Shown here piece by piece: positions 6,440 to 16,680 of a DNA stretch of 22,117 bases (positions are counted from its first letter, which is position 1; each line of letters opens with the position of its first letter). This DNA comes from Bacteroidota bacterium (GTDB taxonomy: Bacteria; Bacteroidota; Bacteroidia; Flavobacteriales; Flavobacteriaceae). The stretch covers positions 1 to 22,117 of the forward strand of contig JADFSQ010000001.1 in the NCBI GenBank assembly GCA_022560715.1. Reading direction: 5' to 3'. Both the position numbers and the translations under genes were made by a program. Under the pieces are notes generated by a model. It was not told where the DNA came from and ran no database searches. It saw only the letters and a program-made list of their open reading frames with translations.

Positions 6440-6513
6440 GGTCCCATAGCTCAGCTGGTTAGAGCACTTGACTCATAATCAAGGGGTCCATGGTTCGAGC
6501 CCATGTGGGACCA
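6440..6513 (+). tRNA. tRNA with CAU anticodon (tRNA-Ile2 favoured over elongator tRNA-Met)
   Basis: All arms fold: acceptor GGTCCCA/TGGGACC with discriminator A at 6513, D stem GCTC/GAGC, anticodon stem CTTGA/TCAAG with loop CTCATAA (anticodon CAU), T stem CATGG/CCATG with loop TTCGAGC. CCA is not encoded. The acceptor stem has C4-G69 and C5-G68, the pairs used by TilS to select tRNA-Ile2 for lysidine modification in E. coli. This favours Ile2 (reads AUA), but elongator Met cannot be excluded by eye. The last 12 bases form the left copy of the direct repeat bounding the downstream island. A -7-like box TAATATTG sits at 6421-6428. Confidence 0.95.
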
Positions 6514-6835: not shown

Positions 6836-7969
6836 ATGAATTTATCTCTCACCAATATAATAGCTATTCTCTTTTTCTTTCAGGCCACACTTTTTTCAGT
6901 GTATTTGATAACCATGAAGAAGCATAGAAACTTGAGTAATAAGCTGCTAGCGCTGTTCTTGTTTGTTATAGGTGCTAATATTTTCGAAGGATTGTTATAC
7001 AAGTCCTTTTATATGAAACATCCGGAGTTTGCATTCTACATTAATAATACCGCAAGTTTAATTGCTCCAGTGCTCTATCTCTATGTTAGAACATTGGCGT
7101 ATAAAATAACCAAACTAAAATGGTCTGATTTGATCCATTTATTGATGTACACTGTGTTGGTGGTTTGGAGCTTTTTTGATTATCACTTACTGCCTAGCAA
7201 CGAGCAACTTACTATCCTTACTACCGGAGTAGGCTTGAATGAATTACTCATGAAGATAATCGTTGCAATGATGTTCTCGCAGTTCTTGATATACCTCATT
7301 TTAACCATCAGACTAATCATAAGATATAGGAAACTTGTTAGGGAGAACTATTCAGAGGATTCTAAAGTGAATTCGAGCTGGCTAAGTCAAATTGTGGTCG
7401 TTTTTCTAATAATTGCACTTCTTGCTGTAATTGAAAACGTGATTGAATCTAATTTTTCAAGTGAAACTTATGAAAATACTTTACTGATCATATTCTTTGG
7501 TTATTTGGTATTCATTAATTGGATCATATTCAAAGCCTTGAAAGTTCCTCAACTATTTCAAGGAATTGATAAGGATGTTGAATTAGCGAAGGAAATGGAC
7601 CAGGGAACATTAACAGAAGCTGATAAGCGGATATTGAATAAGTTGAATGAATATATGTTAAATGAAAAACCCTACCTGAATTCAACATTAACGTTACGAC
7701 AACTCGCGAAAAATATTGAATTATCCAGCAGGGAACTTTCAATACTTATTAATAATCACCTTAATCAAAATTTCTTCGATTATGTGAATACTTTCCGAAT
7801 TGAGAATACTAAGCAAAAGCTTATAGATTTTGCTTATAAAGATCATACAGTATTGGAGCTCATGTACGATTCGGGGTTCAATTCAAAATCTTCTTTCAAT
7901 ACAGCTTTCCGAAAAGTAACAGGACTAGTGCCAACCGCTTACAGACATAAATATCTTATTACCAAATAG
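6836..7969 (+). CDS. Membrane-anchored AraC-family transcriptional regulator (7 TM + HTH)
   Basis: A 377-residue protein from the ATG at 6836, which begins directly with the first membrane segment; an in-frame ATG at 6797 would add 13 residues without membrane character. Seven hydrophobic segments are visible (about 5-25, 35-55, 65-87, 95-115, 145-170, 190-210, 222-240), then a linker and a C-terminal AraC HTH_18 domain (about 275-377). The second helix-turn-helix reads V-L-E-L-M-Y-D-S-G-F-N-S-K-S-S-F-N-T-A-F-R-K-V-T. This layout is common in Flavobacteriia and suggests a sensor whose ligand is read at the membrane. It lies 134 bp upstream of the ABC ATPase gene in the same direction, with repeated AAGTCGAAC elements between, so it probably controls the transporter. 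It ends with TAG. The signal sensed cannot be deduced. Confidence 0.88.
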   Translation: MNLSLTNIIAILFFFQATLFSVYLITMKKHRNLSNKLLALFLFVIGANIFEGLLYKSFYMKHPEFAFYINNTASLIAPVLYLYVRTLAYKITKLKWSDLIHLLMYTVLVVWSFFDYHLLPSNEQLTILTTGVGLNELLMKIIVAMMFSQFLIYLILTIRLIIRYRKLVRENYSEDSKVNSSWLSQIVVVFLIIALLAVIENVIESNFSSETYENTLLIIFFGYLVFINWIIFKALKVPQLFQGIDKDVELAKEMDQGTLTEADKRILNKLNEYMLNEKPYLNSTLTLRQLAKNIELSSRELSILINNHLNQNFFDYVNTFRIENTKQKLIDFAYKDHTVLELMYDSGFNSKSSFNTAFRKVTGLVPTAYRHKYLITK

Positions 7970-12584: not shown

Positions 12585-12622
12585 TAATTTTTCAATCGAT
12601 GCTCAAACCTTTATACATCCAT

Positions 12623-12703
12623 ACTACTCCATATTACTGTTTTGAAAGATAAATAGTTAGCTAATTACTCCGTATTACTCCATAACACTCCACATTACTA
12701 TAC
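12623..12703. repeat. 10-bp-period repeats just inside the right island end
   Basis: Units ATTACTCCGT (12664-12673), ATTACTCCAT (12674-12683), AACACTCCAC (12684-12693) and ATTACTATAC (12694-12703) are contiguous. Two earlier copies, ACTACTCCAT and ATTACTGTTT, lie at 12623-12642. The period is close to one helical turn, as for arm-type protein-binding sites near attachment sites. Confidence 0.6.
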
Positions 12704-12767: not shown

Positions 12768-12890
12768 GTGCTTAAAATCTACGTAAAAACTGCATTCACT
12801 GCATTTTACCGAATAGATTCTGGGTTTAAATAAATGTTTTAACTTTTGTGCATTTTTTAGGCTAGAATTATAAAACAAGAGTAGTGGGAA

Positions 12891-12964
12891 AAATTGCCAA
12901 CTCTTCAGGAAACCCTACCTAACTACGTCCCTTCTTTGCACCCCATCTTTGCGGTATCAAATTA
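12891..12964 (+). promoter_or_regulatory. Shared operator/promoter, copy A (hydrolase-SDR operon)
   Basis: It begins AAATTGCCAAC and aligns without gaps to copies at 15692-15765 and 16454-16527. Invariant bases in the first 31 positions are AATTGCCAA, then T, T, GGAA, C, ACC and A at fixed spacing. A -7-like box CATCTTTG lies at positions 54-61 and GTATCAAA follows. The start codon is 27 bases further on. Confidence 0.75.
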
Positions 12965-12991
12965 TTTATAAACATTTAAAACACAAAAACA

Positions 12992-13723
12992 ATGAAAAAT
13001 TTATTCCTAACAGTTGCCTTAGCAATTGTAAGTATCACACAAACATTTGCACAATTACCGGATCCCGGATTTGATATTGATGGCGCAACAGCTATCGTAA
13101 TTACCGACCCTCAAAACGATTTTTTAAGTCCCAATGGTGTTACCTGGGGTATGGTTGGCGAAAGCGTGACTGCAAATAATACGGTTGAAAACATAGAGAC
13201 CTTATTCAAATTGGCAGAGGCTAATGGCATTAAAGTATTTATTTCTCCACATTACTACTACAAACACGATCACGATTGGAAGTTTGAAGGCGCTTTAGAG
13301 ACCTTAATGCATAAAATAAATATGTTCGACAGAGGTGACCAATTGCAAACAGAAGGCTTTGAAGGCTCAGGTGCCGACTTTTTAGAACGCTATAAAAAAT
13401 ATATTGATAAGGATTTTGTGACCGTTGTAGGACCACATAAAATTTATGGCCCTGAACAGAACGATCTGAGTTTACAATTGCGTAAACAAAAAATTGACAA
13501 GGTGATTTTGGCAGGAATGTCAGGTAATTTATGTGTTGAAGCGCATATGAGAGAATTGATCGAAGACGGCTTTGAAGTAGCTGTAGTAGGTGATGCAACG
13601 GCATCGGCAATCGTTCCTGGATATGATGGAAACGCAGCTGCACAAACCAATTTCAGATTTATTTCTAGCCATGTATACAGTACTAAAGAATTGGCTGAAG
13701 ATTTAAAAAACCACAAACACTAA
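12992..13723 (+). CDS. Exported isochorismatase-family cysteine hydrolase
   Basis: A 243-residue protein with a clear Sec signal peptide (residues 1-20, cleavage after T-F-A) followed by an isochorismatase-like domain. The catalytic triad of the family is present: Asp39 in I-T-D-P-Q-N-D-F, Lys150 in G-P-H-K-I-Y, and nucleophile Cys181 in [11 protein letters not shown]. Most family members are cytoplasmic amidases or hydrolases, so export is unusual. The His-rich stretch [10 protein letters not shown] (87-96) may line the active site. The substrate is unknown; true isochorismate hydrolysis is unlikely without siderophore genes nearby. The SDR gene follows after 7 bp in the same operon, and the operon starts with operator copy A. 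Confidence 0.88.
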
Positions 13724-13730
13724 ACTACTC

Positions 13731-14477
13731 ATGAAAGAATTTAATAACAAAACTGCCCTTATTATTGGAGGCACAAGCGGCATCGGGAATGCCACAGTAA
13801 ATACCTTATTAGAAGCTGGCGCTACCGTACATATAGTAGGTAGAAATGTCAACAAGGTAGCAGACGCCGAAAACCTCATCAAACATCGTATTGATATCAC
13901 AGATGCCAATGATGTGCAAACATTGATCGCTAAAATTGAAGGCTTAGACAATCTAGATTTCCTGGTAAATGCATCAGGGATCTTTGCGCCAAAACCATTT
14001 TTGGAACATACAACAGAAGATTATAATTCATATTTAGATCTCAACAGAGGCTTCTTCTTTATTACACAGGCAGTAGCTAAAAAGATGAAGGACACTAATG
14101 GCGGTGCCATTGTAAATGTAGGATCGATGTGGGCAAAACAAGCGGTGAAAGCAACCCCATCATCAGCATATTCCATGCAAAAAGCAGGACTACATGCGCT
14201 AACCCAACACTTAGCCATGGAGTTGGCCGACTATAATATAAGAGTAAATGCAGTCTCTCCTGCTGTGGTAAACACCCCCGTGTATCACGGTGTATTTGGT
14301 GGAAAAGAAGAAGCTGAAAAAGCATTGGAAGGCTTTCATAGTTTCCACCCAATTGGCAGAAATGGTACGGCTCAGGATATTGCCAATAGCATCACATTTC
14401 TACTTTCAGATAAATCAGCATGGGTTACCGGAGCGATCTGGGATATCGATGGCGGCGTGAGTGCCGGAAGAAATTAA
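13731..14477 (+). CDS. Short-chain dehydrogenase/reductase (SDR)
   Basis: A 248-residue classical SDR oxidoreductase. The cofactor-binding motif is G13-G-T-S-G17-I-G19, the NAG-like motif N80-A-S-G, the catalytic residues Ser132 and Tyr147-x-x-x-Lys151, with an Asn at about 105. The P-A-V-V-N-T-P block and the C-terminal D-I-D-G-G-V-S are also typical. Arg38 after the second strand (V-G-R-N) suggests NADP(H) preference. The protein has no signal peptide, so it works in the cytoplasm although its operon partner is exported. The substrate cannot be inferred. A strong terminator follows the stop codon. Confidence 0.93.
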
Positions 14478-14503
14478 TTTAGTTTAAGTTGATTGATAGC
14501 AGA

Positions 14504-14537
14504 AAGGGGCTGATTGTAATGATCAGTCCCTTTTTTT
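14504..14537 (+). terminator. Terminator of the hydrolase-SDR operon
   Basis: AGGGGCTGAT pairs with ATCAGTCCCT (one G-U pair) and is followed by seven T. It lies 26 bases after the SDR stop. Confidence 0.85.
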
Positions 14538-14562
14538 ATTGGCATTGGATAAATCTAAAGTT

Positions 14563-14754
14563 TATACCATTTAATACCAATTTAAGTTCATAATGACGTA
14601 TTGAAGTTGTTTAATTTTCACAATATTTTCGTTAAAATATTTGACCATAACTTAAGCTATGCTAAAACATTTTGCCTCAATCTTGTAAAAATTAATTCAA
14701 TTCAATCTTACGACATTACAAAATTAAATTGGTATAAGTTTTGAAATTGGTATA
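14563..14754. repeat. 192-bp fold-back palindrome (MITE-like element)
   Basis: The two halves are reverse complements over nearly the full length, centred on CTTAAG at 14651-14656. Ends are TATACCA (14563) and TGGTATA (14754). Each end holds a doubled motif: TATACCA plus ATACCAATTTAA on the left, and the inverse with an 8-bp insertion on the right. Inner blocks such as TAATGnCGTA, TTAATTTTnACAA and CATAnCTTAAG also match their opposite arm. No ORF is inside. It could be a MITE, a REP-like element or a long RNA hairpin. Confidence 0.65.
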
Positions 14755-14862
14755 GAGAAAAGAAATGATTTAATATATCGGCTTCAATGCTTAAAAGGTA
14801 TTAGTATATTCGTAAATCATAAATGCTCGCCTTAATGAGTATTTATCAATTGACCGAATGTT
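14755..14862 (+). promoter_or_regulatory. Leader of the AraC regulator gene with -7-like box
   Basis: TATATTCG at 14805-14812 matches TAnnTTTG at seven of eight positions and ends 50 bases before the ATG. No copy of the AATTGCCAA operator occurs here, so the regulator gene does not seem to control itself through that site. Confidence 0.4.
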
Positions 14863-15684
14863 ATGAAATTTATTGGAAATACAAACGAATTCCTTCAGCT
14901 TAAAATTCTTGAAAGTCAAGATTGCAGTGTATTTAACGATATTGTTGAGGGGAGCTTAATCGTATTATGGTTTGAAGGCGACCACAATGCACTTACCATC
15001 GATGGGAAAGATTATGTGTTTACTAAAAACCAGATCGTATTTCTCACCGAATTTCATAAAGTTAAAGTGAATTGTTTAGAGACCACGCGCTTTTTAAGAT
15101 TCAACAGGTCGTTTTATTGTGTGATCGATCACGATAAAGAAGTAGGTTGTAAAGGCATTCTGTTTTTTGGAGCCTCACAATTGCCCGTGATTCAAATTCC
15201 GGATGAAGATCTGGAACAGTTCGAAATTCTCTGGAAAATGTTCAGTATTGAAATGCAATCTAAAGACAACCTTCAAATTGATATGTTGCAAATGATGCTG
15301 AAGCGCTATTTAATTTTATGTACCCGATTATTTAAAACCCAGCAGCGGTATCCTGATAAAACCCAGCAGTCGGATATTATTAGAGATTTCAACTTTTTAG
15401 TAGAGCAGCATTTCAAAACCAAGCATTCGGTTGCCGAATATGCCGAACTGCTTTACAAATCGCCAAAAACCCTATCCAATATATTTTCAAAGCTCGGTTC
15501 TAAAACACCGCTGCAATATATTCAGGAACGTAAAATGCTTGAAGCAAGACGCCGTTTACGCTATTCCGATCTGCAAATCCAAGAAATAGCCTTCGAAATT
15601 GGGTTTGAGGATATTCAAGCCTTCAGCCGATTTTTTAAGAAAAAAGAAGGTGTTTCCCCATCGGTTTTCAAAAAAAAAATCTAA
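14863..15684 (+). CDS. AraC-family transcriptional regulator with N-terminal cupin-like domain
   Basis: A soluble 273-residue regulator. Residues about 1-110 look like the beta-rich cupin sensor domain (G-S-L-I-V-L-W-F-E-G-D-H-N-A-L-T-I-D-G). A helical linker (115-165) and the AraC DNA-binding domain (about 172-273) with two helix-turn-helix units follow; the second reads I-Q-E-I-A-F-E-I-G-F-E-D-I-Q-A-F-S-R-F-F-K-K. Five cysteines (21, 71, 86, 96, 153), four of them in the sensor half, would permit redox sensing, but this is inference. The stop codon is seven bases upstream of operator copy B, and operator copies A and C flank the locus, so this protein is the best candidate for the factor reading those sites. 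It has no membrane segment, unlike the island regulator. Confidence 0.92.
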   Translation: MKFIGNTNEFLQLKILESQDCSVFNDIVEGSLIVLWFEGDHNALTIDGKDYVFTKNQIVFLTEFHKVKVNCLETTRFLRFNRSFYCVIDHDKEVGCKGILFFGASQLPVIQIPDEDLEQFEILWKMFSIEMQSKDNLQIDMLQMMLKRYLILCTRLFKTQQRYPDKTQQSDIIRDFNFLVEQHFKTKHSVAEYAELLYKSPKTLSNIFSKLGSKTPLQYIQERKMLEARRRLRYSDLQIQEIAFEIGFEDIQAFSRFFKKKEGVSPSVFKKKI

Positions 15685-15691
15685 TTAGGAA

Positions 15692-15765
15692 TAATTGCCA
15701 AGTTTTGGGGAATTCTCACCCACTAAAACTCTTCGTAATCTTCTCATTTTTGTAGTATTAAAGTA
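15692..15765 (+). promoter_or_regulatory. Shared operator/promoter, copy B (CMD-family gene)
   Basis: It begins TAATTGCCAAG, aligned without gaps to copies A and C. The -7-like box is CATTTTTG at positions 54-61, followed by GTATTAAA. It starts seven bases after the regulator stop codon and ends 19 bases before the downstream ATG. Confidence 0.75.
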
Positions 15766-15784
15766 ATCATTAAAAATAAAAATT

Positions 15785-16360
15785 ATGAATACAATCACAA
15801 AGTTGGCATTAACGCCAAAAACAATTGAAACCGCCGATGCAATATCTAGGGTAACGCTAGAAGCAGCACAAAAAGGAATGGGAATGATTCCAAATATGTA
15901 TGGAGGAATGGCAAACAATCCAGCTCTTTTAGACTCCTATAGTCATGCCTATAAAAGTTTTAGAGAAAACGCTGGATTTACATCTCAAGAACAGGAAATT
16001 ATATTTCTATCTGTAGCTTTTGAAAATGAATGCGATTACTGTATGGCAGCGCATAGTTTTGTTGCAGATAAGATGAGTAAAGTTCCAACCGAAGTTACGG
16101 ATGCTATTAGAAACAATACTGAAATTGAAGATGTAAAGTACAAAGCCTTAAGCCAATTTAGTAGAATTATGACAGCAAAGAGAGGGAATCCAACTCAAGA
16201 AGAGATTGACGACTTTTTAGATGCTGGATATAATGAAAACCATATTCTAGGGGTTATAACAGGAATAGGTATAAAAACTATGAGCAACTATTTTAATCAT
16301 GTGTTTAACACCCCTGTCGATGATGCGTTCAAAGGTAGAACCTGGTCAAAACCTGAATAA
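15785..16360 (+). CDS. Carboxymuconolactone decarboxylase family protein (AhpD-like)
   Basis: A 191-residue, all-helical protein of the CMD/AhpD superfamily. The redox centre E-C-D-Y-C-M-A-A-H carries Cys83, Cys86 and His90, the C-x-x-C-x-x-x-H arrangement of AhpD peroxidase/reductase proteins. This makes thiol peroxidase-type chemistry more likely than decarboxylation. The conserved C-terminal helix H-I-L-G-V-I-T-G-I-G-I-K-T-M-S-N-Y-F-N-H is present. The gene forms its own unit between operator copy B and a terminator. Its reductant could be the thioredoxin of the neighbouring unit, which has the same operator. The natural oxidant is unknown. Confidence 0.92.
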   Translation: MNTITKLALTPKTIETADAISRVTLEAAQKGMGMIPNMYGGMANNPALLDSYSHAYKSFRENAGFTSQEQEIIFLSVAFENECDYCMAAHSFVADKMSKVPTEVTDAIRNNTEIEDVKYKALSQFSRIMTAKRGNPTQEEIDDFLDAGYNENHILGVITGIGIKTMSNYFNHVFNTPVDDAFKGRTWSKPE

Positions 16361-16408
16361 ACCAATGCCCATATATAGCCCCATATTTAAAGGGGATCAT
16401 CAAATTTC

Positions 16409-16440
16409 AAAAGTGCTGACACTCCGTTAGCACTTTTTTT
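16409..16440 (+). terminator. Terminator of the CMD-family gene
   Basis: AAAGTGCTGAC pairs with GTTAGCACTTT (one G-U pair) around loop ACTCC, then runs into T. Operator copy C starts 13 bases later. Confidence 0.85.
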
Positions 16441-16453
16441 ATTAAAAGAGGAG

Positions 16454-16527
16454 AAATTGCCAAGTCCTCGGGAATACTTACCTATCAAATACCCTCCATT
16501 TCACTGCATCTTTGTAGTATCAAATTA
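16454..16527 (+). promoter_or_regulatory. Shared operator/promoter, copy C (small peptide-thioredoxin unit)
   Basis: It begins AAATTGCCAAG. The -7-like box CATCTTTG at positions 54-61 and GTATCAAA are identical or nearly so to copy A. No -33 TTTG box stands at the usual place in any of the three, which suits activator-dependent promoters. Confidence 0.75.
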
Positions 16528-16548: not shown

Positions 16549-16680
16549 ATGACAACTACACAAGTAAAAAAAGAAACACATTCAACTATTGAAGTGTTCC
16601 ACAGATCTAAACGCTTAATATGGAATAGTAAAAGACGCAATTCATTTATTAGACCTAACAAATTTATTTATCAATACTAA
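16549..16680 (+). CDS. Small basic protein of unknown function, upstream of thioredoxin
   Basis: An ORF of 43 codons starting MTTTQVKKETHSTIEVFHRS and ending N-K-F-I-Y-Q-Y. I do not recognise it. It is strongly basic (many Lys and Arg, few acidic residues) and has no membrane segment or cysteine. Its ATG lies 21 bases after operator copy C, at the same distance as the starts of the proven-looking genes behind copies A and B, and the thioredoxin gene follows after 11 bases. So the first translated gene of this transcript is this ORF. It could be a real small protein working with thioredoxin, or a leader ORF influencing thioredoxin translation. Confidence 0.5.
   Translation: MTTTQVKKETHSTIEVFHRSKRLIWNSKRRNSFIRPNKFIYQY

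Follow-up and report, generated by a model that had tools for sequence, protein, structure and literature searches.

A 22,117-nucleotide stretch of DNA from a member of the Flavobacteriaceae (Bacteroidota; assembly GCA_022560715.1, contig JADFSQ010000001.1, positions 1 to 22,117), hereafter the window, carries three related copies of one operator and promoter, each leading into a different set of genes, and among them lies the gene for an AraC-type regulator, here called REG. Regulator and operator constitute a real, conserved pair, and the pairing is well supported. That REG is a dimeric AraC-type activator of the three units, acting through a 21-bp direct repeat and triggered most likely by a thiol-reactive oxidant or electrophile, is an account that we consider reasonably probable. 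The initial annotation of this DNA had described a regulon of one locus; in scale this has given way to a module that recurs in many Bacteroidota. Its regulatory elements in the window are these:

12886-12921, plus strand: operator 1, a direct repeat in a 21-bp register (half-sites 12886-12900 and 12907-12921)
12944-12951, plus strand: -7 box CATCTTTG of promoter 1 (predicted start site about 12956)
14863-15684, plus strand: REG, AraC-type regulator (PF12833) with a cupin-like N-terminal sensor and a C-terminal DNA-binding domain
15687-15722, plus strand: operator 2, directly 3' of the REG stop codon (half-sites 15687-15701 and 15708-15722)
15745-15752, plus strand: -7 box CATTTTTG of promoter 2 (predicted start site about 15757)
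16449-16484, plus strand: operator 3 (half-sites 16449-16463 and 16470-16484)
16507-16514, plus strand: -7 box CATCTTTG of promoter 3 (predicted start site about 16519)

The blocks beginning at 12891, 15692 and 16454 align without a gap, as the initial annotation had it, and are identical in 40 of 74 columns, as against a mean of 6.2 and a maximum of 24 common columns in 200,000 random triples of 74-bp windows, and a mean of 9.9 and a maximum of 23 when the random triples are anchored on TTTG. The elements AATTGCCAA, GGAA, ACC, CAT(C/T)TTTG and GTAT(C/T)AAA lie at the positions it gave. Common columns number 19 in the operator part (columns 0-30) and 13 of 18 in the -7 part (columns 52-70), 5 in the 72 bp upstream (-80 to -8) and 3 in the 60 bp from column 100; with only 5 of 72 upstream columns shared, recent copying of a whole segment is excluded as the origin of the three blocks. 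A held-out model (R2) based on sequence only, with 35 sites from other genomes as input and none from the window, recovers exactly the three window sites in their own assembly (E 3.5e-14, 4.8e-12 and 6.2e-12; next best 0.33), and a second model, R1, likewise finds three sites in this genome, its next best match standing at E 0.29. The assembly is 81.6% complete, so that further sites could be missing from it. No site was found upstream of the REG gene, in keeping with the earlier remark that the regulator lacks one, and REG itself is probably made constitutively. Promoters of the sigma-70 type (18 found, 20.2 expected) and known RNA elements (the Rfam match in the window is limited to a tRNA at 6440-6513) were set aside.

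The anatomy of the operator emerged from an alignment of 38 sites (17 from loci with a REG of about 49-100% identity to the window's, and 21 from more distant loci). These were picked from 53 matches, of which 15, mostly with at least 3 core mismatches, were dropped by judgement before counting. The operator consists of two half-sites in direct repeat, GGGAAAAATTGMCAA at -6 to 8 and GGGAAnnnTTnCCwA at 15 to 29 (the first A of AATTG being 0), upstream of a flavobacterial -7 box. Mean identity at an offset of 21 is 0.62, compared with 0.265 averaged over 81 offsets, and in 31 of the 38 sites, all three window sites included, this offset takes first place among the 81 (a tie counting as first). 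Selection of the sites had fixed AATTGMCAA, GGAA and a CATCTTTG-like box, leaving the upstream GGGAA and the downstream TTnCCwA free. The operator had initially been read as one AATTGCCAA block at about -64 to -34; the single block is replaced by a direct repeat in a 21-bp register that spans about -70 to -35, with the conserved GGGAA half-element beginning 6 bp 5' of AATTG and hence outside the former block. When the 20-mer core alone was searched for (at most one mismatch, no -7 condition) in the window and loci L039-L078, TTTG lay at the identical distance in 23 of 28 matches, one base off in another, replaced by TTTA in two and by unlike sequence in two, and the upstream GGAA was present in 25.

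Since the flavobacterial -7 box spans -12 to -5, as stated in a passage of PMC9723704, its position would place the half-sites at about -70 to -56 and -49 to -35. A REG dimer would bind both in tandem orientation, with the downstream half-site next to the -33 region of a sigma-A promoter of the flavobacterial type (TAnnTTTG-like -7 box), and we propose from this that REG recruits RNA polymerase there. Some AraC-family members repress, and REG might do so at these sites, an option that we regard as extremely improbable given that the repeat ends 5' of the -7 box, at about -35 from the predicted start site, where activators of the AraC type are positioned.

Scanning of related genomes for site and regulator together, the check that the initial annotation proposed, supports the pairing. 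In 397 genomes of the family a strict site pattern including TTTG, with at most one mismatch, found 43 sites in 33 genomes, the reversed pattern used as control giving 6 matches; 38 of the 43 are no more than 3 kb away from a REG homologue (REG presence called at E<=1e-40; in G115 it is a REG fragment, at E 1.2e-38, that makes the site count as adjacent). The 5 sites elsewhere, in G248, G392, G302, G116 (no REG at E<=1e-40) and G271 (REG 18 kb off), are no excess over the control. Model R1, applied to 198 relatives at E<=1e-4 with REG paralogues down to about 34% identity counted, gave 66 sites, of which 62 have a REG homologue or paralogue within 3 kb, as do 19 of the 22 sites outside the genomes used for the model; the exceptions are G054:C1:249, G014:C26:4985, G130:C1:1159515 and G086:C16:6806, the last 7.5 kb from REG. 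In 198 genomes sampled across the phylum, a few of which belong to the two former sets as well (site cut-off E<=1e-4), REG occurs in 15, the site in 12 and both in 11; without the window's own genome, 10 of 14 genomes with REG have the site as against 1 of 183 others (G610; Fisher p 5.6e-13), and a site in G634, far from REG, may be a chance match. Genomes devoid of the regulator, in which the initial annotation had considered the presence of the site fatal to its proposal, have no excess of sites.

The named loci, a further sample, comprise the best 80 of 557 relatives, fetched by a scan with two peptide patterns, one containing C86 of REG; their organisms, partly the same as genomes given a G handle (L144 is G086, for instance), include Aquimarina, Zobellia, Maribacter, Flavobacterium, Chitinophaga, Terrimonas, Dyadobacter and Saprospiraceae. 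At a cut-off of E<=0.05, 77 of the 80 have a site and in 69 there is one that falls -60 to +600 bp from the REG stop; those lacking one are L193 and L201, where the sequence ends 137 and 282 bp past REG, and L209. The module is patchy, in that genomes G001-G003 of the window's genus have no REG match better than E 5.9e-9, although G004 of the same genus has the module. Partial matches to the site model, running from position 7, 17 or 18 to 76, also stand directly behind distant REG paralogues of 34-36% identity (G087:C13:116490, here at only E 0.002, G037:C45:35824, G067:C33:471724, G089:C10:487732 and G094:C12:287783). The operator code may extend to such further AraC paralogues, to judge by these sequences.

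The REG stop codon (15682-15684) ends 2 bp before operator 2, and in 63 of the 80 named loci a site begins between -60 and +120 bp of the REG stop, as might be expected if the site were a cis element of the 3' end of the REG transcript, or a general strong promoter form, to which REG does not bind. We take this to be quite improbable: the window sites also stand upstream of the hydrolase gene ISO, 2 kb before REG, and of a thioredoxin gene, sites lie 7.5-7.8 kb from REG in G086 and G618, the distance to the -7 box is kept in the above 23 of 28 core matches even when unused in the search, and genomes without REG show no excess of sites.

REG has the double helix-turn-helix of the AraC family at its C-terminus (PF12833, 78.8 bits against a cut-off of 33.6), matching the domains of MarA, SoxS and AraC, and a predicted cupin-like N-terminal sensor and dimerisation domain, seen in model and structure matches. 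Its operator likewise has the form expected for AraC/XylS proteins, with two direct-repeat half-sites about 21 bp apart beside a promoter. The sensor domain bears a loop, NRxFYCxxDHDxEVxCxGxLF, in which C86 and C96 are kept in all 41 homologues fetched, without selection for the loop, by whole-protein similarity, and H90 in 39 of them; C86 falls outside the low-confidence part of a predicted REG structure. This C86/H90/C96 loop is where the trigger, which could be reactive halogen species, hypothiocyanite-like oxidants or quinones, would be sensed, REG then switching on the exported hydrolase with its short-chain dehydrogenase/reductase (SDR), a peroxidase of the AhpD-like carboxymuconolactone decarboxylase (CMD) family, and a small basic peptide with thioredoxin. 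The remaining features of the locus, with open reading frame abbreviated as ORF, are:

12992-13723, plus strand: ISO, isochorismatase-fold cysteine hydrolase (PF00857, E 1.9e-25; D39, C181), with an N-terminus that looks signal-like by eye
13731-14477, plus strand: SDR oxidoreductase of the ISO unit (PF13561, E 3.2e-50)
14501-14537, plus strand: intrinsic terminator of the ISO-SDR unit (fold z -5.4; absent from the consensus terminator scan)
15785-16360, plus strand: AhpD-like CMD-family protein (C83-x2-C86-x3-H90)
16409-16437, plus strand: intrinsic terminator of the CMD unit (fold z -6.5; also in the consensus terminator scan)
16549-16680, plus strand: small basic ORF of 43 amino acids (KRLIWNSKRRNSF), a probable gene with counterparts in relatives L040 and L041
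16692-17009, plus strand: thioredoxin (TIGR01068, 106.9 bits against a cut-off of 96.8; WCGPC at residue 28)

The terminators after the SDR and CMD genes make it likely that ISO-SDR, REG, CMD and small ORF-thioredoxin are separate units, and so bear out the division into transcription units made at the outset. The window CMD protein has the CxxC-x3-H active-site motif, with C83, C86 and H90 invariant in 11 of 11 aligned sequences, and scores below the curated cut-offs (PF02627, 21.8 bits against 23; TIGR01926, 64.1 against 81.8), while a profile of 11 relatives matches AhpD structures (6e8l, E 4e-38). The thioredoxin combines the TIGR01068 match with WCGPC, and ISO has the isochorismatase fold by PF00857 (90.4 bits), with D39 and C181, which we take to be catalytic; compared with solved structures, ISO gave zero matches at E<=1e-8. 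Across the 95 sites of the named loci, the first ORF (ATG start, at least 38 amino acids, at most 330 bp away; mostly named by the analyst from the sequence rather than from a family scan) is CMD in 32, a small cysteine-containing protein in 32, ISO in 8 and thioredoxin in 4; PNPOx-like, dehalogenase-like (both in L192) and secreted-looking proteins account for two each, no ORF was found for 2, and 11 are single cases, including OsmC-like, quinone-oxidoreductase-like, alpha/beta hydrolase and GAPDH-like proteins and a CMD cut by a contig end. Of 79 named loci, 52 have a CMD gene no more than 3 kb from REG, as do 33 of the 41 loci formed by the window together with L039-L078. In the more distant group, L050-L078, 9 of 29 loci show the order REG, site, small cysteine protein, site, CMD, cupredoxin (the last identified by Pfam); 6 of the 41 have a ferritin-like gene (by eye) nearby; G618 has a site followed by a small cysteine ORF, CMD, thioredoxin and OsmC-like genes, 7.8 kb from REG; and G004 has a site, a cysteine-dioxygenase-family gene, REG, a site, ISO and OsmC. 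CMD, thioredoxin and OsmC-like genes behind the sites support the thiol or redox flavour that the initial annotation attributed to the targets, and the redox reading of the module is likely.

Cupin regulators of the AraC type usually bind ligands, and the pair could be the same with REG sensing a small organic ligand or a metal in its cupin pocket and the enzymes forming a catabolic or detoxification pathway for one substrate. The names ISO, SDR and CMD suit a pathway, the loop, rich in C, H and D, could hold a metal, and sites precede dehalogenase-like hydrolases in L192, one such gene also adjoining a site in G086; yet the window CMD has the AhpD-type CxxCxxxH motif and the AhpD structural match of its relatives, thioredoxin and OsmC-like genes recur behind sites, and the target enzymes differ among loci beyond what a single pathway allows. 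We therefore judge this alternative unlikely, while giving it weight.

The small proteins behind the sites are of two kinds. G009 and G087 have, at the equivalent position behind a site, ORFs similar to the 43-amino-acid one of the window, and one database protein is 93% identical to it; in G086 the thioredoxin gene stands directly behind its site with no small basic ORF between. The small cysteine protein of relatives (50-58 amino acids, (S)IFNLIEIF...HCEQKHxHDFYCDAEKP) has its own operator, as in L062 (site at 7436), L204 and L194. Its 97 database homologues include none with a Pfam domain, those that are named being called hypothetical or uncharacterized, and both cysteines are invariant in 26 aligned sequences; we claim no fold, as its structure model is of low confidence (predicted local distance difference test, pLDDT, 58). 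It may be a redox-active effector or a feedback sensor.

Further sites were observed in other contexts. G086, the closest relative, has a fourth one at L225:1307-1380 (G086:C16:6806). It stands at a distance of 7.5 kb from REG and precedes a 144-amino-acid membrane-protein-like ORF, then deaminase-like and PNPOx-like genes (by eye), and in Rhodohalobacter (L199) a site is followed by a membrane protein similar, by eye, to that of G086. In G107 (L045:9611-10584) a Sulf_transp (YeeE-type) gene and a similar neighbour lie behind a site, a small cysteine ORF and CMD, a hint of sulfur or thiol metabolism.

Several observations weigh against the account of REG as an oxidant-responsive activator of these units. 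REG is present in 131 of the 397 family genomes, 28 of which have a strict match and 103 none, and in the phylum sample 4 of 15 genomes with REG (G397, G123, G136 and G585) have no site; moreover, most loci have the site at the REG 3' end, a position that could by itself raise the co-occurrence of site and REG. The targets are highly variable, and some first genes (GAPDH-like, dehalogenase-like, secreted uncharacterized) are not obviously redox. C86 is absent from 3, C96 from 6 and one or both from 8 of 76 named-locus homologues, so that the cysteine pair is not indispensable, and conservation of the loop in the named loci is partly selected, since a pattern used to fetch them contained C86. 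Finally, the REG sensor domain has no detectable relation to that of E. coli RclR.

Two repeats adjoin the locus. Upstream of REG, at 14574-14735, is a 162-bp inverted-repeat element resembling a miniature inverted-repeat transposable element (MITE), with more copies in the same genome on contigs C125, C109 and C444 and pieces on C266 and C212, and at 12618-12699 a repeat in 10-bp steps (TCCATATTACT-like) lies between a large ABC-transporter-type membrane gene (by eye) and operator 1.

Stress regulons of Bacteroidota are poorly mapped, and here DNA alone is enough to recognise the regulator, its operator sequence and the geometry of the promoter, and to follow them through the phylum. We tentatively suggest, at somewhat less than an even chance, an undescribed Bacteroidota-wide oxidant or electrophile system in which a distinct AraC subfamily, sensing through the NRxFYC-DHD-EV-C-G loop of its cupin domain, would command a variable arsenal through one 21-bp operator, the small cysteine protein often being the first target. 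The sites provide a ready-made matrix for regulon prediction in many named strains, together with two testable items: a large regulator subfamily with a candidate cysteine switch, and small proteins that belong to no database family. Were the trigger an algal or host oxidant, this would explain how marine flavobacteria cope with the oxidative burst from algae that they degrade.

Among the open-licence papers listed, we found no description of this regulator, operator or set of targets in Bacteroidota, the small cysteine protein itself not having been searched for. The nearest parallel for the operator is AraC of E. coli at araI1-I2, whose half-sites form a direct repeat in the same orientation with 21-bp spacing next to the promoter, as here; the promoter in the window is of the Bacteroidota kind, however, and the half-site sequence and sensor signature are others. 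I1 and I2 are described as adjacent in a passage of PMC4486848. E. coli RclR with RclABC is similar as an AraC-family regulator with oxidant-defence targets, and senses through cysteines C21 and C89, according to an excerpt of PMC7464077. REG C86 and C96, in contrast, are part of a signature showing no alignment with RclR: BLASTP is significant over 189-273 only, a profile comparison aligns columns 197-284 only, and Cupin_6 (PF12852), at 68.2 bits in E. coli RclR, has no match in REG at E<=1. With only the DNA-binding domains aligning, REG was rejected as an RclR with respect to the E. coli protein, the sole RclR tested.

Among flavobacteria, the CMD-family gene ZGAL_1598 of Zobellia galactanivorans is induced on fresh kelp (Laminaria), as reported in a section of PMC9296495, and Zobellia uliginosa (L190) has the arrangement REG, site, small cysteine protein, CMD, cupredoxin; both concern a flavobacterial CMD-family gene. 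In Pseudomonas aeruginosa, RclR activates an adjacent AhpD-family gene upon exposure to hypochlorous acid (HOCl) or hypothiocyanous acid (HOSCN) and does not regulate itself, as far as an excerpt of PMC7950407 goes. The REG module shares with this RclR-RclX pair an AraC-family activator, in the case of REG a proposed one, an adjacent single-gene unit for an AhpD/CMD-type CxxC protein, and the lack of autoregulation (PMC7950407), but differs from it in comprising three units, with thioredoxin, an exported hydrolase and an SDR.

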